DNA of 64,000 bases from positions 26,668 through 90,667 of IMG/VR virus record IMGVR_UViG_3300032116_000088. The stretch is one strand, 5' to 3'. Origin of the DNA: a virus. The position numbers and the translations under genes are program-made. The notes beneath the pieces are model-generated. The model ran no database searches. It saw nothing but the letters and a program-made list of their open reading frames with translations, and had not been told where the DNA came from. Shown one piece after another: positions 4,641 to 60,062 of this stretch. Position 1 is the first letter of the stretch, and each line of letters opens with the position of its first letter.

Positions 4641-5904
4641 TGTTTTTGTTGGTAAATATAGGAAAGGAACCAATACTTCGGTTTCTTTTCCTACTTTACC
4701 CTCTTTAAGTGCCCAACCAAGAAGAATTGACCTTATTCAAAAACAATACTCTCATGATGTTTTAGTATTAGAATACCCTGCAGAAAGCCTTTTATGGTTT
4801 GACTCACTAAAGACAGGGGTTCCTATTCAGTTTTCTTGGAACCAAAATACTCTATATAAAAATTGGATTGGATACGTGTCTTCTATTTCAAAAAACAATG
4901 CTCCTCAAAGAATGAACTCTATGAAAGTTGTTTGTGTTGGAAGCTCTTTTCCGTTAAAAGATAGGGTAGCTAGAGTATTTGAAGACTCCTCTATACCTAA
5001 TGCTGTTCGTAGAATTGTTGAAGAATACGGGTTTAGATATATTGGAGATGACAATGGCCAATTATTTTCTCAGCTAACTATAGCCGGTTTAACTTATTGG
5101 GAATGGATTGTTGAACAAGCTAAACGTATTGGATATGGGATTATAGTTGATGGCATGAACTTTATTTTTAAACCGATAGATAAGCTTATAGATTTTGGGT
5201 TTAGTAGTGCTGCGGTTCTTAGTATGGGAGATGCAACTATCCCTTTTAACTCTCAGGCTTTAGATAGGACTCTTGATATTTTTAATGTTATTAGCGGAGA
5301 TAACATAGAAGACACAGTTAATTTTAGAACAGTTAAAAATGTGGGTGGAGTTGACCCTGTACTAAACACCCCGTATTTTTCTGAAGCAAGTCCAGCTGAT
5401 ATTGGAAACGGTCTACGAAGCAATACTAGTGACGTTTTATTTTCAGAGTATAGAACAGATAGAGTTATTTCTAACTCATTATCAGCCAAAATTGAAGCAG
5501 AAGGTGCGGCAGAACTAGCAAGATTTAACTTACCAGCTAATATTATGGGTCAAGGAGACCCTAAAATTAGGCCATTTTCTACAGTATTTATTTCTGGAAC
5601 GGGTAATTTAACAGATGGTTTTTGGATTGTAAAAGAAGTTAAACATATGTTCCATAAAATTGGGGAATATATGATTGATTTAAAAATAGCCACAGATGGT
5701 TTAGGGGATACCATTGAAACTTCTTTTAGAACCAGGGATTCTTCTTCAGTTGGGCTTATAAACTCTTCAGAAGCAGTAAAAAATAACGGAATTTCGCCTG
5801 TTTATTTCAACATGGACGCCGTAGAGCTAAGTTCAACTGATATGATAGTAAAAGAAGGAAATCAAGGTTATAAAAGAACTATTCAGCAATGGAAGGCACG
5901 ATAG
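4633..5904 (+). CDS. Baseplate hub protein (gp27 / late control gene D-like)
   Basis: This 423-residue protein starts at GTG 4633 inside the end of the preceding gene. The order of features matches gp27/gpD-type hub proteins: an N-terminal beta domain, a W-x-G-Y/V-S-S-I-S motif near residue 80, a domain with a WEWIVEQAKRIG helix, and a final barrel with the VKEVKHMFHK strand. Hub proteins form the trimeric ring holding the tail spike. The adjacent gp25-like, gpJ-like and OB-fold spike genes support this. Confidence 0.75.
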   Translation: MSDVFVGKYRKGTNTSVSFPTLPSLSAQPRRIDLIQKQYSHDVLVLEYPAESLLWFDSLKTGVPIQFSWNQNTLYKNWIGYVSSISKNNAPQRMNSMKVVCVGSSFPLKDRVARVFEDSSIPNAVRRIVEEYGFRYIGDDNGQLFSQLTIAGLTYWEWIVEQAKRIGYGIIVDGMNFIFKPIDKLIDFGFSSAAVLSMGDATIPFNSQALDRTLDIFNVISGDNIEDTVNFRTVKNVGGVDPVLNTPYFSEASPADIGNGLRSNTSDVLFSEYRTDRVISNSLSAKIEAEGAAELARFNLPANIMGQGDPKIRPFSTVFISGTGNLTDGFWIVKEVKHMFHKIGEYMIDLKIATDGLGDTIETSFRTRDSSSVGLINSSEAVKNNGISPVYFNMDAVELSSTDMIVKEGNQGYKRTIQQWKAR

Positions 5905-40318: not shown

Positions 40319-42361
40319 ATGACAGTTTTTTCATTTAAATTAGCAGAAGAATTCGTTGCCGGATACCGGGGTAAGAAACCACCGTTTGGTTATGCCGATG
40401 TTGCGGGGAATTCAGTAGGGGAAATAACATTCCTGAGAACGTATAGTCGTTTGAAAGAAGATGGAACCAAAGAAACATGGGCTGATGTATGTGAGCGTGT
40501 TATTAATGGCATGTATTCATTACAGAAAGACCACGCGAAGCAAAATCGGTTGCCCTGGAGCGATGCAAAAGCTGCGGCCAGTGCAAAAGAAGCGTATGAC
40601 CGTTTATATAACCTAAAATGGACACCACCAGGCCGTGGATTATGGGTAATGGGTACGGAAATTGTAAACGTTCAGAAGAATTCGGCAGCGTTGCAGAATT
40701 GTGCATTTGTTAGCACCAATGAGATGACCAAGAATAATCCAGCAAAACCATTTGGATTCCTAATGGAAGCCAGCATGTTGGGTGTAGGTGTAGGATTTGA
40801 TGATAAGGGTGCTGATAAAGGGTTTGATATATATGAGCCGGGAGCAGTACAAGAATACGTAATTCCAGATACGCGTGAAGGTTGGGCGGATTCTACAATG
40901 TCGTTGATTAATTCATATTTGAAACCAGACCAGCCATCATATGAATTTAATTATGATGATATTAGGCCATATGGGGCATTAATTAAAACATTTGGTGGGA
41001 CCGCATCCGGGCCAGAGCCATTGATTAAATTGCACAAGAATATAAAGAAGATGTTTGATGGACGCAAGGGCGAGAAGTTAAGCCGTGTTGATATTGCCGA
41101 TATTGGTAATATGATTGGCGTGTGTGTAGTTTCCGGAAACGTTCGCCGTTCAGCGGAATTGTTGATTGGCCGTATTGATGATGAGGATTTCCTAAACCTA
41201 AAAAATGGTGAGGTATTCCCTGAACGTAATTCATATGACTCTGAAAATCCAGGATGGGCATGGATGTCTAATAATAGCGTAGATGTTTGTGTTGGGACAG
41301 ACTTTGACCCTATTGTTGATGGGATTGTACGCAACGGAGAACCCGGCGTTATATGGATGGATGTAAGCCGTAAATACGGTCGTCTAGTTGACGCTCCTAA
41401 TAATAAAGACTGGCGTGTAGTTGGATATAATCCTTGTGCAGAGCAGTCTTTGGAGTCTTTTGAGATGTGTACTTTGGTTGAAACATATTTAAATCGCCAT
41501 GAGTCTCTCGAAGATTTCAAGAGGACGTTGAAGTTTGCTTATTTATATGCAAAAACAGTTACACTACTCCCTACACACTGGGAAGAAACTAATGCTATCA
41601 TGCAGCGCAATAGGCGCATTGGTACCAGCATGTCTGGTGTAGCTAACTTTGCTGACAATAAAGGTATGCAGACTCTCCGTGAATGGATGGATGAAGGCTA
41701 CAAGATTGTCCGTGACTATGATATTAAGTACAGTGAGTGGCTAGGCATTCGTGAGTCTATTAAGATGACTACAGTTAAGCCTTCTGGCACTGTGTCTATC
41801 TTAGCTGGAGAATCTCCAGGTGTTCACTGGCCTAGTGGTGGTAAGTTTTTCCTGCGTGCAATTCGTTTTGGAAACAATGACCCTATGTTGCCACTATTTA
41901 AGATGGCTAACTATACTGTAGAGCCAGCTAGTGAGTCGCCAGACACTACGTCTGTTGTGTTCTTCCCTATCAAGACTGACGCTAAACGTTCTGAAAAAGA
42001 AGTGTCTATCTATGAAAAGATGAACCTAGCTGCTACTGCTCAACGTTGGTGGTCAGACAACTCTGTGTCTGTTACTGTCACCTTTGACGCTGAAGAAGAA
42101 AAGAATGATGTCGGAACTGTGCTTCATATGTATGACGGCCAGTTGAAGACTGTAAGCTTCCTCCCTATGGGTAATCATGTGTACCCACAGATGCCTTACA
42201 CTCAGATAACTGAGGAGGAGTATAATGAATACGCTATGCAATTATTCCCAATTGATTTCGTAGGAGTGTACCAGGGTATGGCTGCAGACGCTGTTGGTGA
42301 AGCTTATTGCACCACAGATGCCTGTGAAATTAAACTAATCAAAGATAATACTAAGGAATAA
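40319..42361 (+). CDS. nrdJ: Class II (B12-dependent) ribonucleoside-triphosphate reductase
   Basis: This 680-residue protein resembles the monomeric Lactobacillus leichmannii RTPR type. Redox cysteine C128 (QNCAFVST), NPCAEQ with C373 and E375, C384 (FEMCTLVE), and the C-terminal pair C664/C669 (CTTDACE) are all present with family spacing. It has a TTVKPSGTVS finger loop. It reduces NTPs to dNTPs and needs adenosylcobalamin but no second subunit, suiting aerobic or anaerobic growth. It is preceded by a palindrome-rich leader. Confidence 0.9.
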   Translation: MTVFSFKLAEEFVAGYRGKKPPFGYADVAGNSVGEITFLRTYSRLKEDGTKETWADVCERVINGMYSLQKDHAKQNRLPWSDAKAAASAKEAYDRLYNLKWTPPGRGLWVMGTEIVNVQKNSAALQNCAFVSTNEMTKNNPAKPFGFLMEASMLGVGVGFDDKGADKGFDIYEPGAVQEYVIPDTREGWADSTMSLINSYLKPDQPSYEFNYDDIRPYGALIKTFGGTASGPEPLIKLHKNIKKMFDGRKGEKLSRVDIADIGNMIGVCVVSGNVRRSAELLIGRIDDEDFLNLKNGEVFPERNSYDSENPGWAWMSNNSVDVCVGTDFDPIVDGIVRNGEPGVIWMDVSRKYGRLVDAPNNKDWRVVGYNPCAEQSLESFEMCTLVETYLNRHESLEDFKRTLKFAYLYAKTVTLLPTHWEETNAIMQRNRRIGTSMSGVANFADNKGMQTLREWMDEGYKIVRDYDIKYSEWLGIRESIKMTTVKPSGTVSILAGESPGVHWPSGGKFFLRAIRFGNNDPMLPLFKMANYTVEPASESPDTTSVVFFPIKTDAKRSEKEVSIYEKMNLAATAQRWWSDNSVSVTVTFDAEEEKNDVGTVLHMYDGQLKTVSFLPMGNHVYPQMPYTQITEEEYNEYAMQLFPIDFVGVYQGMAADAVGEAYCTTDACEIKLIKDNTKE

Positions 42362-47075: not shown

Positions 47076-47126
47076 TTGTTTCTCCTTAGTTTGTTTGTGT
47101 TGGCACGGCCTAGTGGCCCTGCTATA

Positions 47127-47913: not shown

Positions 47914-49854
47914 TTACTTACTTAGATTACGCTTGATGGCAAGTCTAACAATTGCTTTAGCAAGAGTTAGAAGTGAACTGCCGTCTTCAAGTGGCACAAC
48001 AATTTCTGAGTTGTGACCGTTGATTGTACGCTTCTCACCTGCTTCTCTACGACGCTGCATGAACTCTTCACCGTACTGTCTGTACTCATCAATAAAACCT
48101 AGGCTAGTGATAACACCATTGCGTCTAAGGTCAGCAATAATCTTGTCACCTTCTTTGCCATACCATTCACCATCAGTAATAGTGATAAGTATCTTGATAG
48201 CACGTGTGCTGTTGGCTAGAACATACTTAGCATACTTAAGTGCATCTTCTGGCTCTGTACCACCAGAGTCACTAGTAATTTTCTTCATAGGCTTAGCACG
48301 TTCGTCTGCTGAGTAAAGCAACTTAGCATCGTTGTCGAATGTAACTACTGTAGTAGATGCGTCTATCTTATCTAGTGAACGCTTGATAGCCCAAGTAGAG
48401 TCAAAGGCAGAGTCTCTAGTCCAAGACATTGAACCAGATACATCTAGAAGAATAACTGCTTCGATATCTGTAACGTCATCTCTACCGTTGTCCCACTGGT
48501 CAAAGCACTCATCAGCATCAACACCTGTAGCATAACGTTGAACATTAAGTCTACCAACTTCAACCTTGCGATTCCAACCTGGGTCAAAGTCAGCCTTGAT
48601 TAGTGATAGTTGATTGGCAAATGATTTGACTTGTGCTACAACATCAGCAGGCACAGCAGCAAGTTGCATATGATAACCTTTCTCTGGCTTAGCAACATAC
48701 TTGCTACTAAGTTGTGGGTCACCATTGAACTGTGCTATAAGGTCATTAACATCATCACGCAACAACTCTTTGATTTGGTTGTTATGCTTTTTGATATTGT
48801 TAACAGCATTATCAATATGACCTGTGCCTGCTGAACTACTTGTGTCATCTTGTGGTTGACCAGGTTGACCAGGTTGACCAGGCTGATTACCAGGCTGACC
48901 AGGACTCTTGCCAGGAACTTTAGGACCACAACCACCGTTAGAACCAGTAGGCTCAGGGTCACCTTCTGCTTCTTGGTCACCGTCTGGATTAGTAGGTTGA
49001 GCATTACGTTTCTTGACAATCTTGTCAATGATACGGTCTTGACCAGCCTTGTTAGTAGTCTTGGACTTGTCACTAGACTTAGCACCAGGATGACCACAAG
49101 TACCACCAGTAGGTGATGGTGGACGCACAGGTTCATTAGTATTTATCTTGAGTAACTTATGTAGTCTCTCGATAAGTTGCATAGCTAATGGTATGTGTGC
49201 ACTGTTAGACAGGTTAAGTATTGTATAGTCATCAATTATAGAACCAATCTCTGCAACAATACTCTGGTCAACAAATGCATCCTTGATTACTTTACGTAAG
49301 TCATCAGGTAAAAATGTTCTACCGTGTATCAAAGGATAAGCATAGGGTATAGAGTTTGTATCCTTCAATAACATCTGAGTGATAGAAGCAGTAAACCAAT
49401 GCTTGACGTTACTATACTTAGCATCTAAGAATACTTCAAGACGCTGGTCTTCAAGTATGTTGAATGCTATGTTGTATTCATTGTTTTTGACCCACTTAAC
49501 TAGATTGCTACTAGACCGTGGAGTAAACAATATGTGACCAACTTCGTGTAATGAAATACCCTTGACTGCGATAATTGAATCGGGGTCAGTAAGGTCACCC
49601 ATTTCATCTTCGTTGAACCAAATGTTTTCAGCATCAGACCAGGCTTCGATATGACGCATATGATTTGGATTTTTAGCACTTGTTGACATTGATACGTGAA
49701 TAAGTCTAGCAGTAAGAGCACTAGCAAATTTACTTACGACTGAAGTCATACGTGCATTGCGTTGCTCTGTTGTATCAGTAGGCAACATATTGTTGACAAC
49801 TTCTACATACTCAGACTCAAACAGGGCATCAATATCGGCTATATCTTTTTCCAT
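47914..49854 (-). CDS. VWA-domain protein with HExxH motif (CobT/DUF2201-like, MoxR partner)
   Basis: The start is ATG at 49854 (AGGAGA upstream); 12 extra codons are possible but lack a site. This 646-residue protein has HEVGH (H103-E104-x2-H107) in a helical N-terminal domain, a Pro/Gly/Gln-rich repeat linker (about residues 285-350), then a VWA domain with MIDAS DVSGSMS (D471, S473, S475). The pair MoxR ATPase plus VWA matches CobS/CobT chelatase and MoxR-DUF2201 systems. It lies directly downstream of the ATPase gene. The B12-dependent RNR makes a link to cobalt chelation tempting. Confidence 0.7.
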   Translation of the reverse strand: MEKDIADIDALFESEYVEVVNNMLPTDTTEQRNARMTSVVSKFASALTARLIHVSMSTSAKNPNHMRHIEAWSDAENIWFNEDEMGDLTDPDSIIAVKGISLHEVGHILFTPRSSSNLVKWVKNNEYNIAFNILEDQRLEVFLDAKYSNVKHWFTASITQMLLKDTNSIPYAYPLIHGRTFLPDDLRKVIKDAFVDQSIVAEIGSIIDDYTILNLSNSAHIPLAMQLIERLHKLLKINTNEPVRPPSPTGGTCGHPGAKSSDKSKTTNKAGQDRIIDKIVKKRNAQPTNPDGDQEAEGDPEPTGSNGGCGPKVPGKSPGQPGNQPGQPGQPGQPQDDTSSSAGTGHIDNAVNNIKKHNNQIKELLRDDVNDLIAQFNGDPQLSSKYVAKPEKGYHMQLAAVPADVVAQVKSFANQLSLIKADFDPGWNRKVEVGRLNVQRYATGVDADECFDQWDNGRDDVTDIEAVILLDVSGSMSWTRDSAFDSTWAIKRSLDKIDASTTVVTFDNDAKLLYSADERAKPMKKITSDSGGTEPEDALKYAKYVLANSTRAIKILITITDGEWYGKEGDKIIADLRRNGVITSLGFIDEYRQYGEEFMQRRREAGEKRTINGHNSEIVVPLEDGSSLLTLAKAIVRLAIKRNLSK

Positions 49855-49878
49855 ATATATTCTCCTATATAAGTTGGC

Positions 49879-49911
49879 GGGTAGCGGCAACCATTACCAT
49901 TGCCGCTACCC
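49879..49911 (-). promoter_or_regulatory. 12-bp hairpin between AAA+ and VWA genes
   Basis: A perfect 12-bp stem (49879-49890 with 49900-49911; GGGTAGCGGCAA/TTGCCGCTACCC) encloses a 9-base loop. It lies between the ATPase stop (49918) and the VWA start (49854). No T-run follows on either strand. It may set the ratio of the two proteins by processing or attenuation. Confidence 0.6.
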
Positions 49912-49917
49912 TAGAGT

Positions 49918-51276
49918 TTACTCGTTGTAGCCGTTAAGTGGCACACCGAGTTCTTGTGCGATAACATCTACGTTAGCATCAAAGGTCATCTTGATTGCTT
50001 CACGCTCACCGTCATCCTTAGGGAAGTTGTTGAGCATAGATGATACAGCAAAGGATAGGTTAAGACCCTTAGCCTGCTCTATGAAGTTGAGCAAGATACG
50101 GGTAGACATAGGCTTGCTGAACTGGTCAGTAGTCTTGCTTGCTTCACGAATGCTGTGTGCAAACTGTAGCAGAGCAGATGAAGGTATGAACTTAGACTCA
50201 AGTTCGATGTCGTAATCGAACTCTAACTTAGGTTGCATACGGTCATACAAGGCATCATCTTGACGTTGAACACCTGTATAACCCTGACCTGTGTTCTGGT
50301 CAGCAATGAACAGACACTCAGGATGAACCTTGATGACCTGGTTTAGCTGGTCAACAATAAGTTCACGCTCATTAAGAACACGAAGCAAGAGAGATGCAGC
50401 CTTAGGCTGTAGTCTGCTCAACTCGTTAATCAGAATGACTGATGGCTGTTGAATTGCTGTAGCAAACTGACTGTACTTCCACTTGGTGCTGTTGCCTACA
50501 CCTGTAGGAACAAAGCGACCGTGTAGAACAGTCTGGTCAATCTGCTGTGTACACTCTACAACTACGAACGGTATATTGCGAATGTGTGCATAGTGCTCTG
50601 CAGCACTAGACTTACCTGTACCGGCTGGACCAGTAAGCAAGACAGTTCGTTGGTTATCTCTTGCAAAGTCAAATACTTGACTCTCAAGAACACCATCGAA
50701 CACTCGCTCAATGTGTAGCCTACCGGCTGGAACAGTGATTGGTGTCTCGTTATCGGAACTTAACACGCTACTGTTGGTATATTGCATGGGTGTCTCCTGT
50801 ATAGGAAGTTCAATCTCTTGAACTTGTGGGTCAGGCTGTGGCGGAGTTGCTACAACCTGTTGCACCACTGGCTGTGGTGTGGCTTGTGTTACTTGAACAA
50901 CTGCGTTCTCATATACTGCTAGAGAACTTGGGTCATTCATAGTCTGCTCTACCAGAGTATTGAACTCATCTAGAGCAGAATTACTTGTCACATTGCTAGC
51001 AGTTAGTTTCTTACCTAACTTAACTAGGAACATTGACGGTGTAATTGTGGAGTTGATTATCCTGTCTTCTGCAGGAGTAATCTTTAGTGATACTGGGCTT
51101 CCGACTAGCATCTCATTATCTTCAATGAGAACGTCGCCTTCAACCCAAGCACCAGCACGACCTCGTCCTTCTCCAAGCCTAGAGAAAATACGAACATTAC
51201 CATCTGCTGTTGGCGTAATGGCTACAGTTCGTAGTTCTCCTTGACTGTTTTGGGACTTCATCATTGCTGCATACAT
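49918..51276 (-). CDS. MoxR/CobS-like AAA+ ATPase
   Basis: In this 452-residue protein residues 1-180 form a beta-rich N-terminal region plus a Pro/Gln/Val-rich linker. The AAA+ domain has Walker A GPAGTGKS (216-223), Walker B VILINE (280-285, Asn replacing the first acidic residue but Glu kept), a RLQPKAASLLLRVLNERE helix, and sensor ADQNTG. It is close to CobS/MoxR. CobS-like genes are known in marine cyanophages and were proposed to help make B12 for RNR. Next to a VWA gene as in such systems. Confidence 0.8.
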   Translation of the reverse strand: MYAAMMKSQNSQGELRTVAITPTADGNVRIFSRLGEGRGRAGAWVEGDVLIEDNEMLVGSPVSLKITPAEDRIINSTITPSMFLVKLGKKLTASNVTSNSALDEFNTLVEQTMNDPSSLAVYENAVVQVTQATPQPVVQQVVATPPQPDPQVQEIELPIQETPMQYTNSSVLSSDNETPITVPAGRLHIERVFDGVLESQVFDFARDNQRTVLLTGPAGTGKSSAAEHYAHIRNIPFVVVECTQQIDQTVLHGRFVPTGVGNSTKWKYSQFATAIQQPSVILINELSRLQPKAASLLLRVLNERELIVDQLNQVIKVHPECLFIADQNTGQGYTGVQRQDDALYDRMQPKLEFDYDIELESKFIPSSALLQFAHSIREASKTTDQFSKPMSTRILLNFIEQAKGLNLSFAVSSMLNNFPKDDGEREAIKMTFDANVDVIAQELGVPLNGYNE

Positions 51277-51308: not shown

Positions 51309-51671
51309 TTATTCGATGTCAAGATTTTTGATAATGTCATCGAATTCTTGGTTAATTTGCTTTTGTGCAATATCATCACCTGATTGCCAAAGAATCTTGG
51401 CAGTTTTAGTAATTTGCATAATGGCAAATACAATTTCATGCTTCTCTCCGTCATCATCAACAATGTGGTGAACTCCATCAATAACTTCATGAGATTGTTC
51501 GTGCTCTTTGTGCATCTCTACAAGTGCTTCGAGATACGCATTAGCCGCCTTCTCTGAAGGAAACTCCATAGGCCAAGCCTCTGGTTCTTCTTCACATAGG
51601 TGGCAACGCTTTAAGATAATGTAATTTGCTGGAAACTTTGGCAAATCATCATCTTTAATACGATGTTCCAT
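51309..51671 (-). CDS. Hypothetical protein, acidic with CxxC
   Basis: ATG at 51671 (AAGGTAA upstream) is preferred over a start 37 codons earlier, because that extension would span the hairpin at 51696-51720. The 120-residue protein has CHLC near residue 23 and a charged helical end. It starts 25 bases after an intrinsic terminator, so its expression may depend on read-through or on a promoter overlapping the hairpin. Confidence 0.55.
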   Translation of the reverse strand: MEHRIKDDDLPKFPANYIILKRCHLCEEEPEAWPMEFPSEKAANAYLEALVEMHKEHEQSHEVIDGVHHIVDDDGEKHEIVFAIMQITKTAKILWQSGDDIAQKQINQEFDDIIKNLDIE

Positions 51672-51695
51672 AATATTACCTTTCATAGTAATAAA

Positions 51696-51720
51696 ACCTA
51701 GTAGCGACTTGCTACTAGGT
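51696..51720 (-). terminator. Intrinsic terminator (minus strand)
   Basis: A perfect 10-bp stem ACCTAGTAGC/GCTACTAGGT (51696-51705 with 51711-51720) with a 5-base loop is followed on the minus strand by TTTTATTACT. It would end transcripts coming leftward from 51.7-52.4 kb, that is, the 3' end of the structured non-coding stretch. Confidence 0.7.
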
Positions 51721-52392
51721 GTATCTGTATGACTATACAGAACTTTACAGCCTAAGATGTTTGTGTCGGCTAGGCTTATCACACCGACTAGGTCAATGCC
51801 CCGTGGCTACACTGTAGTCTGACTTATACAAGCCCATCTATATAAGATGCTGTTGACTTGTGTAGCCACGGAACATTAGAAGAGTTTAACCATCTAGTTT
51901 GCGCCCAATACTCAATATGCTAGTTACTCTTTACTCACTAAGGTTCACATATATCTAACGTCTTCAATTATCCGAATAGAAGCGAAGCGCCTATCTATAA
52001 GCCAAGCCTCCCACTTGAACGGGCTTTGATTGACTGGCCTAGCCACACCAGATACTATACATTGCTGTATAGAATTCTATGCAGTCTTTCACAACTAAAC
52101 ATAGACTCGAAAGTTTCTGCCTAGTTGTGAAAGTTTATACACTTAACTGCTTAGTGTTTGACTTTACGTTGTCATCGTTTGTAGTTTTACGAGGAATTGT
52201 TATGCTTTGGAATTCCACCTAATGCACACCCACCGACTCTACTCATTACTGAGTGCCAGCTGCTACCTTTACGTACGGGGCATCACGCTCGATGGTTTTT
52301 GTTTACGGAGAGCCATACCAAAAAACTCTCCCCAGTGCTCATTTATGACTTACGTCAAGGGGGATGCACCCCATCTAAGTATTGCTACTTAG
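51696..52392 (-). ncRNA. Candidate large structured non-coding RNA (about 700 nt)
   Basis: No convincing gene lies in this 700-base stretch between two minus-strand genes; short frames there have poor starts. On the minus strand it has a hairpin overlapping the upstream gene stop (CTAAGTA-GCAA-TACTTAG, 52375-52392), GGGG-TGCAT-CCCC (52360-52373), a 12-bp stem with 24-base loop (52086-52097 with 52122-52133), CTATACA-GCAA-TGTATAG (52055-52072), a 12-bp stem closing about 47 bases (51801-51812 with 51860-51871), and the terminator hairpin at 51696-51720. Two stems carry GNRA (GCAA) loops only if read on the minus strand. The layout suits a large ornate phage RNA (GOLLD/ROOL-like class); identity not established. 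Confidence 0.55.
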
Positions 52393-52699
52393 AATTCTTT
52401 TGTTTGAGGTTATTGAGTGCGTCAACAACTTCTTGCAAAGCCTTAGGTGTTTCTACAGGTTCAGTGATTTGAATACGGCTAATCTCATCACCATTTTCGT
52501 CATACTTAACTATTTCTGCTATCGCACCAGGGTCTTGAGCCATAAGCCTTGCCTGTATAACTTCTTGGTCTTCACCAGTTTTTTCTGATTCTTCCCATGC
52601 TTCAGCCATTTGGTCTAAGAACTTATCAAGGTCATTGATTCTCATAGCCGTTCCATTAGCAAGAATACGCTTTGATTCTTCTGGGTCTAATACAGTCAT
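52385..52699 (-). CDS. Hypothetical acidic helical protein
   Basis: This 104-residue protein has a long helix (INDLDKFLDQMAEAWEESEK) and a beta-like segment (AEIVKYDENGDEISRIQI). Its TAG lies inside the GCAA-looped hairpin at 52375-52392. It overlaps the upstream gene by 4 bases. No family recognised. Confidence 0.5.
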   Translation of the reverse strand: MTVLDPEESKRILANGTAMRINDLDKFLDQMAEAWEESEKTGEDQEVIQARLMAQDPGAIAEIVKYDENGDEISRIQITEPVETPKALQEVVDALNNLKQKNSK

Positions 52700-53424: not shown

Positions 53425-53739
53425 TTACCATCCTTTTTCTATTGTTGTTATTAGTTCTGTATAGAACTCAACAGTTGTTATGCCTAAACCACGGCATAAA
53501 GCTTCTACAGTGCTAGAACTAGCAACCTTTTGACCTAGTTCTACTTCGCAAATAAACGCTAAAGCAACATTGCTATTTTTAGCTACATTGCGTAGTGTCA
53601 AGTCTTTGTTCATACGAATGCGTCTAAGTGTTCTACCTATTTGAGAGTTTAGACTATTGTGTCTGAAATAGTTAGTGGTTGTCTTAGGTTGTTTGTGTTG
53701 GCTAGGCGGCGACGCTAGACTAACGCTTGTTGTAGGCAT
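53425..53739 (-). CDS. ClgR/PopR-like XRE-family regulator
   Basis: This 104-residue protein has an XRE HTH at residues 35-90: LRRIRMNKDLTLRNVAKNSN, then VALAFICEVELGQKVASS and VEALCRGLGIT. The wording S-x-x-x-I-C-E-V-E-x-G-x-K-x-A-S-S is that of actinobacterial ClgR/PopR, which control Clp protease and other stress genes. A phage copy may mimic or counter the host regulon. It overlaps the upstream gene by 20 bases. Confidence 0.75.
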   Translation of the reverse strand: MPTTSVSLASPPSQHKQPKTTTNYFRHNSLNSQIGRTLRRIRMNKDLTLRNVAKNSNVALAFICEVELGQKVASSSTVEALCRGLGITTVEFYTELITTIEKGW

Positions 53740-54955: not shown

Positions 54956-55297
54956 TGTTTTCCTACCTTTCTATAGGCTAAATGGGGCTTGGTTAATCTA
55001 TAGGATACGGTTCAATTGAGCGAGCTACCACGGTCATAACCAAGCCCCTTTGTTACCCTTAGAACGCCCCTACACCATGTAAATAGGGGGTTCTAAGGGG
55101 GCTTTGCCCCCTTACCCATAAAGGAGGTAATATCTCAAGGGGGACTTATTGTTTAGAGATACTACGTGCCCTAGAGAGCGGACTATGAGGCTCCCTAGGG
55201 CTTGCAAGACTTAGAGTATATAAATACCTGCTTGCTTGTTGAATTAGATAGGGCACAGAGATAATGCTTTGACTAAATCCGCCGTTATCTATTGATA
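54956..55297. other. Non-coding interval with several hairpins (342 bases)
   Basis: No gene seen. An 11-bp stem GGGGCTTGGTT/AACCAAGCCCC (54984-54994 with 55038-55048) is followed by the repeat element at 55056-55113. An imperfect 11-bp stem GCCCTAGAGAG/CTCCCTAGGGC lies at about 55169-55202, and TATATAAATA at about 55217-55227 could be a minus-strand -10 region. A similar set (GTGCCCTAG ... TAGGGCTTG ... TATATAAA) recurs at 56044-56120, so this is probably a repeated promoter-plus-leader module. Confidence 0.5.
55056..55113. repeat. Structured GC-rich repeat element, copy A
   Basis: Two hairpins in tandem: CCCTTAGAAC/GTTCTAAGGG (55056-55065 with 55090-55099, containing CGCCCCT/AGGGGG), then AAGGGGGC-TTT-GCCCCCTT (55095-55102 with 55106-55113). 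The two are mutually exclusive at the TTCTAAGGG strand, as in an attenuator. Copy B is at 55661-55707. Confidence 0.6.
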
Positions 55298-55630: not shown

Positions 55631-55660
55631 GTTGCTCACCCCCTTTCTTTGGGTAAGGCT

Positions 55661-55707
55661 AACAACGCCCCTGTTAGCGGGGGGTTCTAGGGGGGCTTGC
55701 CCCCCTA
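55661..55707. repeat. Structured GC-rich repeat element, copy B
   Basis: Shares ACGCCCCT, then GGGGGGTTCTA, then TAGGGGGG-CTTG-CCCCCCTA (55688-55695 with 55700-55707) with copy A at 55056-55113. A GCTAAC/GTTAGC stem (55658-55663 with 55673-55678) is specific to this copy. It lies between two minus-strand genes. Confidence 0.6.
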
Positions 55708-55712
55708 AAGTC

Positions 55713-55877
55713 TTAGTCAGTGAGAATCTTAAAGCAAGTCTTACAGACATACTTATATCTCTTATGGACTATAAACACTAAGTCATACTTCTTAGAGTTC
55801 CAATAGTCTCTAGAACTGCCTTTACAGCAGTCACATCTCTCAGGCCAACCTGGAGGTGTAGGCTCTCTTTCAGCCAT
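55713..55877 (-). CDS. Zinc-ribbon micro-protein (54 aa)
   Basis: ATG at 55877, stop 55713-55715. Cys pairs CDCC near residue 15 and CKTC near residue 45 in a basic, aromatic background (NSKKYDLVFIVHKRYKY) indicate a zinc ribbon. Overlaps the upstream gene by 8 bases. Confidence 0.6.
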   Translation of the reverse strand: MAEREPTPPGWPERCDCCKGSSRDYWNSKKYDLVFIVHKRYKYVCKTCFKILTD

Positions 55878-56025
55878 TTACAGGCTCTTCAGGCTTATGA
55901 CAGTCACACTCACAAGGCTCACACCTAGAGTGGTCTCCATCTGTAAAGCAATTACCTATGAAGTAATGGACTGTCTTAGGGGTATCCTTACAGCCACAGT
56001 CTTCGGCTTCTGTGTATTTACACAT
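55870..56025 (-). CDS. Cysteine-rich micro-protein (51 aa)
   Basis: ATG at 56025, stop 55870-55872; AAAGGAG lies upstream. Eight Cys plus His (EDCGCKDTP, CEPCECDCHK) suggest binding of two metal ions. Acidic otherwise. Unknown. Confidence 0.55.
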   Translation of the reverse strand: MCKYTEAEDCGCKDTPKTVHYFIGNCFTDGDHSRCEPCECDCHKPEEPVNG

Positions 56026-56231
56026 AACGGCTCCTTTCTATGAGCGTGCCCTAGGCAGGACTATGCACCTACCTGTAGGCTGCCTTACGGCTTCCTATAG
56101 GGCTTGTCTATATATAAAGCCTACAGACAGGCTTAGGGACTGTTATACTTGATAACAGTGACGGGCAGGCTTCGTAAATCTGGCTACAGACTCACTTAGC
56201 CTGCCCGTCGGTTGGACAGTAGCCGAACGGC
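56026..56231. other. Non-coding interval with leader-like and terminator-like hairpins
   Basis: No gene seen. It contains an imperfect GCCCTAGG/CCTATAGGGC structure (about 56045-56102) resembling that at 55169-55202, a TATATA (about 56110) possible -10, an 8-bp stem ACTGTTAT/ATAACAGT (56139-56159), and a 12-bp stem GACGGGCAGGCT/AGCCTGCCCGTC (56160-56171 with 56198-56209). The last lies just after the stop of the 56232-56702 gene and is probably its terminator. Confidence 0.55.
56160..56209 (-). terminator. 12-bp GC-rich inverted repeat after the 56.2 kb gene
   Basis: A perfect 12-bp stem (56160-56171 with 56198-56209) with a 26-base loop lies 22 bases downstream of the minus-strand stop at 56232. 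No clear T-run, so termination efficiency is uncertain. Confidence 0.55.
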
Positions 56232-56702: not shown

Positions 56703-57087
56703 GGCTATCACTCCTTATTAGTGATAAAGGTGATACCTAGGCGATTACCTAGGCACGCGTGCCATACCTAAAAGATACGGCACACGCCTAAATACGCGGT
56801 TAGGTGTCTAGCCGTGTAAATAGGTGTATGCCGTAGCGTTTAGGGCGTTCATAACTACATAGATAAGGGCACTAGCCTAGTGTTGCCTAGTGCCCTTACC
56901 TAGTATGTAGGTCTATCTAGGCGTATTGCCTAGACCTAACTACTATCCACGCCACTAAACCCGTATTGGTTGCCTAGTGGCGATAATTCCATACTAGCCT
57001 AACCCCTTACCACTACCCTAACGCTAACACCTAAGAGATGGGCCAGGTGAAAAACACGGTTGAAGCTTTTTTATATTAAGCAGTAGC
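56703..57087. other. Structured CTAG-rich non-coding interval (385 bases)
   Basis: No gene seen. Hairpins: AAGGGCACTAG/CTAGTGCCCTT (56865-56875 with 56887-56897), TCTAGGC/GCCTAGA (56916-56922 with 56928-56934), CGCCACTA/TAGTGGCG (56950-56957 with 56975-56982) and GTGCC/GGCAC (56759-56763 with 56779-56783). The word GTTGCCTAGTG occurs at 56882-56892 and 56969-56979, each in a hairpin 3' arm. CCTAGG, CTAG and TAGGTGT are very frequent. It may be a leader RNA or operator array of the 56.2 kb gene, or an origin-like region. Confidence 0.5.
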
Positions 57088-59975: not shown

Positions 59976-60047
59976 TGACCTTTAGCTCAATGGCAGAGCA
60001 GAGAGCTGTTAACTCTAAGGTTCCTGGTTCGAGTCCAGGAAGGTCAG
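59976..60047 (+). tRNA. tRNA-Asn (GTT anticodon)
   Basis: A perfect 7-bp acceptor TGACCTT/AAGGTCA, D-stem GCTC/GAGC, anticodon stem GAGAG/CTCTA (one mismatch), loop CTGTTAA with anticodon GTT, a 5-base variable loop and T-arm CCTGG-TTCGAGT-CCAGG. CCA is not encoded. It may serve translation of Asn-rich phage proteins. Confidence 0.9.
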
Positions 60048-60062
60048 CGATAGGAGAATAAA

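Follow-up and report, generated by a model that had tools for sequence, protein, structure and literature searches.

The window, by which we mean the whole stretch of 64,000 nucleotides analyzed here, corresponds to G000:26668-90667 of a virus record 90,667 bases long. On its minus strand, 713 noncoding bases separate the stop codon (at 52385) of an upstream gene (52385-52699) from a small downstream ORF, whose start at 51671 was placed from its homologues and which is followed by genes for an ATPase and its VWA-domain partner (Table 1). The MFE of the gap on this strand is -234.7 kcal/mol (z -7.5), and none of 20 shuffles was equally low; the plus strand of the same gap (51672-52384) gave a z of -6.1. 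An earlier note on this DNA had described a stretch lacking genes, rich in strong hairpins and including two with GCAA loops on the minus strand. This description holds: the minus strand is gene-free over 51672-52384, its fold contains numerous hairpins, and exactly two of these are perfect GCAA-loop hairpins (52374-52393 and 52055-52072), while hairpins of this kind with at least 7 bp occur just four times across the whole 90.7-kb record. The region is not unique within the window, since three further minus-strand gaps are about equally structured (55751-56231, z -8.0; 56712-57087, z -5.9; 54956-55297, z -5.5).

Table 1. Features of the structured RNA and its surroundings (window coordinates unless a contig is named)
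Feature	Position	Strand	Remarks
Structured noncoding leader/intercistronic RNA, whole	51672..52384	-	z -7.5; homologous RNA in L002, L003, L004, L012
5' domain	52080..52384	-	not related to that of L002/L003/L012; L004 lacks it
GCAA-loop hairpin of 5' domain	52374..52393	-	overlaps stop codon of upstream gene
3' domain	51686..52079	-	kept in all five distinct members; alignments A1, A3
Hairpin P1, GCAA loop	52055..52072	-	two compensatory pair changes
Ultra-conserved block UAUCUGGUGUGGCUAGGCCAGUCAAUCAAAGCC	52022..52054	-	alignment A5
Hairpin A, CUGG/CCAG	52034-52051	-	within UAUCUGGUGUGGCUAGGCCAGUCAAUCAAAGCC block; predicted loop pairing with 12-nt element
Long hairpin	51796..51877	-	position kept; relatives have a wholly different sequence (CAAGCCCCCU/AGGGGGCUUG)
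Hairpin B	51749..51776	-	loop holds 12-nt element
Dispersed 12-nt element, here CCGACACAAACA	51758..51769	-	loop of hairpin B
Hairpin C	51725..51740	-	two compensatory pairs
Hairpin D (terminator of earlier note)	51696..51720	-	stem conserved and covarying; T-run in window alone
Small ORF directly 3' of RNA	51309..51671	-	ATG 51671, SD GAAAGG 51685-51680; relatives 30-39% identical
MoxR/dynein-type AAA ATPase (AAA_5)	49918..51276	-	
VWA-domain protein, ATPase partner gene	47914..49890	-	
Element copy	47092..47103	-	17 nt upstream of DUF3846 gene
Element copy	53690..53701	-	inside 5' end of HTH (XRE-type) gene; present too in homologous gene of G004
AGGGGGCAAAGCCCCCTTAGAACCCCC...GGGGCGTTCTAAGGG element, window	55080-55145, about 55660-55720	-	intergenic gaps
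AGGGGGCAAAGCCCCCTTAGAACCCCC...GGGGCGTTCTAAGGG element, relatives	L002:1554-1799, L003:1701-1964, L004:648-1007, L014:911-1322		
AGGGGGCAAAGCCCCCTTAGAACCCCC...GGGGCGTTCTAAGGG element, more relatives	L015:916-1265, L016:189-574, L017:3225-3506		

In IMG/VR, ATPase-based searches extended the clade by four distinct contigs (L002, L003, L004, and L012); a further contig, L037, matches L012 exactly over 3.5 kb and was not counted as distinct. At the same position, all clade contigs found in IMG/VR carry an intergenic RNA that shares this 3' domain, which makes five distinct sequences, gene calls in the comparison being mechanical ORFs. The gaps of the relatives are likewise strongly folded (L002, z -7.1; L003, z -7.8; L012, z -10.6 with 12 shuffles), and the 3' domain of each member folded lower than 100 of 100 shuffles, with z between -3.4 and -6.7. 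The 5' domain behaves differently from the 3' domain: L002, L003, and L012 have one in common, to which that of the window is unrelated, and in L004, as read from alignment A1, the gene homologous to the window's upstream one reaches right up to the 3' domain, which brings the RNA down to about 380 nt. In L002 the two domains are separated by an ORF of about 46 codons with an SD before it (MKIHKTSCKHHAECKWEAEVKSSG...; L002:4000-4145 approximately), read directly from the sequence. Because the 5' domain is replaced or absent and an ORF can stand between the domains, the "700-nt RNA" is better described as two modules. It is a genuine, conserved, and heavily folded RNA that heads a phage gene cluster.

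The RNA appears confined to this clade in the collections searched, which were IMG/VR, the GTDB species genomes, and INPHARED. Queries with the ATPase and VWA proteins returned the same contigs together with more distant phages, among them Gordonia and Brevibacterium phages carrying distant ATPase homologues; pattern searches for further RNA members gave the same contigs again, the other matches being chance matches in coding sequence. Strong matches to our covariance model R1, run over 23 records, were restricted to the known members. No homologue of the upstream gene was found in IMG/VR with the query used, the ATPase had no match in GTDB, and a DNA similarity search of cultured phages gave no match to the region.

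Covariation analysis, which the earlier note had proposed for its structured-RNA candidate, bears out the fold: compensatory changes occur in hairpins P1, B, C, and D, which covary among the five distinct members. The stem of hairpin B, for example, reads AGCCUA/UAGGCU in the window and GGCUAG/CUAGCC in L004 and L012. In alignment A4, both sides changed in 6 of 19 pairs and 94.7% of cells were paired, compared with 16 to 44% when the partner was slid by one to three columns; the covariation counts are small because there are just five distinct RNA sequences. Four of the five members have the 33-nt UAUCUGGUGUGGCUAGGCCAGUCAAUCAAAGCC block in near-identical form, and in L012 it is partly altered. 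The block contains hairpin A, whose loop is complementary to that of hairpin B (UGUG/CACA plus GG/CC), so that the two loops may contact each other; the window sequence also allows a long-range helix that would compete with this contact.

How the RNA begins and ends bears on what kind of RNA it is. The earlier note had ended it in a terminator; a scan does find a site there (51720-51696), but chance alone would give 1.6 such sites in 2.6 kb, and the T-run after hairpin D is absent in all four relatives (L002, L003, L004, and L012), and since it is private to the window, the terminator is unsupported. The promoter-like pair reported inside the region fares no better: the letters are present, but the pair fails a promoter scan, and the region holds 6 promoter-like sites versus 7.9 in shuffles. 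Conserved instead is the distance to the next gene, hairpin D and the end of the RNA lying some 15 to 20 nt ahead of its SD in all five members.

These features weigh on the suggestion that the region encodes a free-standing large ornate RNA of the GOLLD or ROOL kind, possibly a homo-oligomer, processed from the transcript. GOLLD (RF02032) is a phage-borne RNA of several hundred nucleotides with a conserved 3' domain and a variable 5' domain (PMC12286853), and the size, fold strength, and 3'-conserved, 5'-variable architecture of the RNA described here are all reminiscent of it; ROOL (RF03087) is similarly a large structured phage RNA. However, neither the region nor its relatives gave more than chance matches to Rfam families at gathering or permissive thresholds, and the only match at gathering score over the window was a tRNA (59976-60047). 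Across 13 related phage records, the GOLLD covariance model gave nothing at the locus even at an E value of 10, its weak matches elsewhere reaching at most 10.6 bits and including control genomes; the ROOL model also gave nothing at the locus in these records, a weaker negative because it matched no control genome either. GOLLD often, though not always, lies near a tRNA island, whereas the sole tRNA of the window (59976-60048 in a tRNA scan) is about 7.6 kb from the RNA, so that no such island exists here for a comparison with either family. Nor does a free RNA sit well with an SD directly 3' of it, with the lack of a conserved promoter and terminator, or with an RNA that shrinks to the length seen in L004 and accommodates a small ORF in L002. 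We therefore consider a free ornate RNA unlikely. The adjacency of the SD, the modularity, and the coding insert in one relative favor an operon-leader or intercistronic RNA. Of the class assignment made in the earlier note, the large structured RNA of a possibly new class stands, with conservation and covariation among relatives, while the suggested identity with GOLLD or ROOL does not; the RNA forms a family that is new and not represented in Rfam, and its carriers are uncultured phages.

The loop of hairpin B holds a 12-nt sequence, CC(A/G)ACACAAACA, that is invariant in all five members and recurs well beyond this RNA. It is present in 5 to 10 copies in most long related records and in fewer in partial contigs, while its reversed pattern is absent from every record except one, which has a single copy. 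Pooled over eight genomes, CCAACACAAACA was the commonest nonrepetitive 12-mer, with 53 copies against none reversed. Intergenic positions account for 37 of 65 sites, compared with 5.5 expected (P = 5e-23; here and below, P values for the element treat homologous sites as independent), and where the neighboring genes share a strand, 29 sites are in sense orientation and 1 is antisense. Typically the element sits after a stop codon, ahead of either the next SD or a terminator, or in the apical region of a long hairpin, the last also at other junctions (G004:60030, G003:14514, and G010:5955 and 9342). The idea that the element always occupies a hairpin loop was rejected: its unpairedness equals that of flank-shuffled controls, and only 15 of 65 sites are apical by a loose criterion. 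As most copies lie outside hairpins, the fold is not required for the element.

Two exact copies in the window, at 41284-41295 and 4929-4940 on the minus strand, are antisense to genes, at positions conserved among the clade members G000, G004, and G002; they are possibly either conserved coding chance or functional complements. A further arrangement was seen at G000:10380-10480, where a GC-rich hairpin without a T-run is followed by the element and then by the SD of the MANKPTSPQD gene. The same order is found in G002, G004, G006, G007, G009, and G010, and in G011 with a GG-type element. It is a possible attenuator, probably located just downstream of the capsid gene; in Streptomyces phage BRock, the homologue of the MANKPTSPQD gene lies just 3' of the major head protein gene, and the 49 kb of BRock examined contain no dispersed element. 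An origin as a host motif was discarded, the GTDB matches listed being scattered over unrelated taxa with no freshwater-actinobacterial cluster among them, and a full-text literature search for CAACACAAACA returned no phage-genome paper among the matches listed.

The element accompanies the ATPase-VWA operon across the phage family. The small ORF and ATPase are preceded by it in G005, G006, G007, and G010, and by its GG form in G011, each time amid otherwise unrelated sequence, so that the element is the conserved kernel of the leader. In G024 and G023, 11 sites each are strung along the operon at mean spacings of 1,165 (CV 0.31) and 1,159 (CV 0.24), respectively, both with P = 1e-4. Over the seven genomes with at least seven sites in series, the CV of the spacing is 0.22 to 0.49 versus about 0.9 for random placement, with a P of 1e-4 in those two; spacing in G038, G009, and G004 is less regular or not significantly so, and exact sites are sparser in the window's clade than in the most regular genomes. 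The long genes for the ATPase and the VWA protein themselves contain some of the sites, located where the protein is rich in proline and threonine and reads as a linker. The CA form of the 12-mer is absent from G011 and Cantare, and Cantare shows no dispersed signal of this kind. In G011, whose ATPase is 38% identical, the most overrepresented 11-mers assemble into CCAAGGCAAACA, present in eight copies at equivalent positions; among these are the GTGGCAAATAAA leader, the junctions at which genes of the ATPase operon begin, and a junction between a stop codon and its terminator. Because G011 carries GG where the others carry CA, the element is best written as CCAA(NN)CAAACA with a lineage-specific core, and the change of core suggests that the element is recognized by a factor that has drifted in specificity.

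Sense bias, presentation in a hairpin with a covarying stem, and positions between stop codons and terminators led us to infer action at the RNA level, with the element as a transcript-borne docking site for a putative factor, possibly one that antiterminates or protects mRNA; against such a reading, the accessibility of the element generally does not exceed that in flank-shuffled controls. The account that we prefer, and to which we would give an even chance, is that the region serves the small ORF-MoxR ATPase-VWA operon as an intercistronic leader RNA, elaborated and specific to the clade, and contains a family-wide element that is read in the transcript. A phage or host factor would recognize the element in the transcript and be loaded repeatedly along the early operon, where it would keep the RNA polymerase or the mRNA productive by antitermination/antipolarity or by transcript protection; the large fold would present or insulate the copy heading the operon. 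More tentatively, and with distinctly less confidence, we propose that this phage family marks its early transcripts with a directional CCAA(CA or GG)CAAACA every 1 to 2 kb or so, within genes too where linkers allow, that on long operons these marks serve the factor as a signal for serial loading or as a checkpoint, and that the 700-nt RNA is a dedicated platform at the head of the ATPase-VWA operon.

The element could instead be a DNA site for a phage repressor or silencer that blocks elongation at numerous points, with the hairpin-rich leader being incidental. Known stoperators are intergenic and placed in one orientation. In Cluster A mycobacteriophages, they are asymmetric sites dispersed across the phage genome (PMC9283540), and the element resembles them in its asymmetry, its dispersed and largely intergenic placement, and its single orientation relative to transcription; a role at the DNA level would produce the same sense orientation and intergenic placement, and the CA/GG core recalls the specificity drift of immunity systems. 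The element differs from stoperators in sequence, in its occurrence also in RNA hairpin loops, and in that no cognate repressor was found: an XRE regulator was considered as a universal factor and rejected, being found in only four of the proteomes scanned, which leaves this reading without a universal repressor candidate. A double-stranded site would, moreover, have no need of copies at junctions between stop codons and intrinsic terminators or in the loops of perfect or covarying stems. We judge a DNA site improbable.

Other dispersed or operon-leading signals invite comparison as well. The SAS/ESAS of Cluster K mycobacteriophages are dispersed, asymmetric 13-bp elements near gene starts, mostly in one orientation, some with adjacent inverted repeats, and of unknown function (PMC3203893). 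The SAS consensus, GGGATAGGAGCCC, stands immediately before the start codon, whereas the element described here has a different consensus and lies further upstream, as well as before terminators, inside genes, and at regular spacing. The ops element, through which RfaH is recruited, is a 12-nt signal in the leaders of long operons that acts on elongating polymerase, usually from one copy per operon; our element shares the length and the position in the leader of a long operon but differs in sequence and occurs in many copies in series. To our knowledge, stoperators, SAS, nut, and ops have not been described as series spaced by about 1.2 kb, and it is rare for signals along a phage operon to be regularly spaced, co-oriented, and in transcript sense. 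Should the element recruit an antitermination or mRNA-protecting factor, it would represent a new way for phages to keep long operons expressed.

The switch from CA to GG would then offer a ready handle for finding that factor. Presence or absence across element-bearing genomes singled out no candidate for the trans-acting factor because all of these genomes share a large core. One core protein (G006:81555-82079), present in 11 of 12 family genomes, has a WhiB-like cysteine pattern with a C-terminal extension and, judged by its sequence, reads as a WhiB-like regulator candidate. Together with the ATPase homologues in Gordonia and Brevibacterium phages, it suggests an actinobacterial host, and the phage family is probably actinobacterial.

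A set of independent attenuator or mRNA-stabilizing hairpins, conserved singly and without joint function, would agree with the separable modules and with the comparable structure of other same-strand gaps, but we think it very unlikely, as a 33-nt block near-identical in four of five members, an invariant loop element, and a possible loop-loop pairing would not be expected of stability hairpins.

Several other structured gaps were seen in these phages. The 5' 46 nt of the minus-strand gap at 56712-57087 are held in common with gaps in L012, L013, L019, and L005, and in two more distant phages, the gaps at L015:916-1265 and L017:1233-1530 are extremely rich in hairpins (z -14.5 and -12.5, respectively, with 12 shuffles). 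A second repeated, structured intergenic element with two hairpins, AGGGGGCAAAGCCCCCTTAGAACCCCC...GGGGCGTTCTAAGGG, is shared among members of the phage family and shows a weak Rfam match to Clostridiales-2 on the opposite strand (E value, 0.019).
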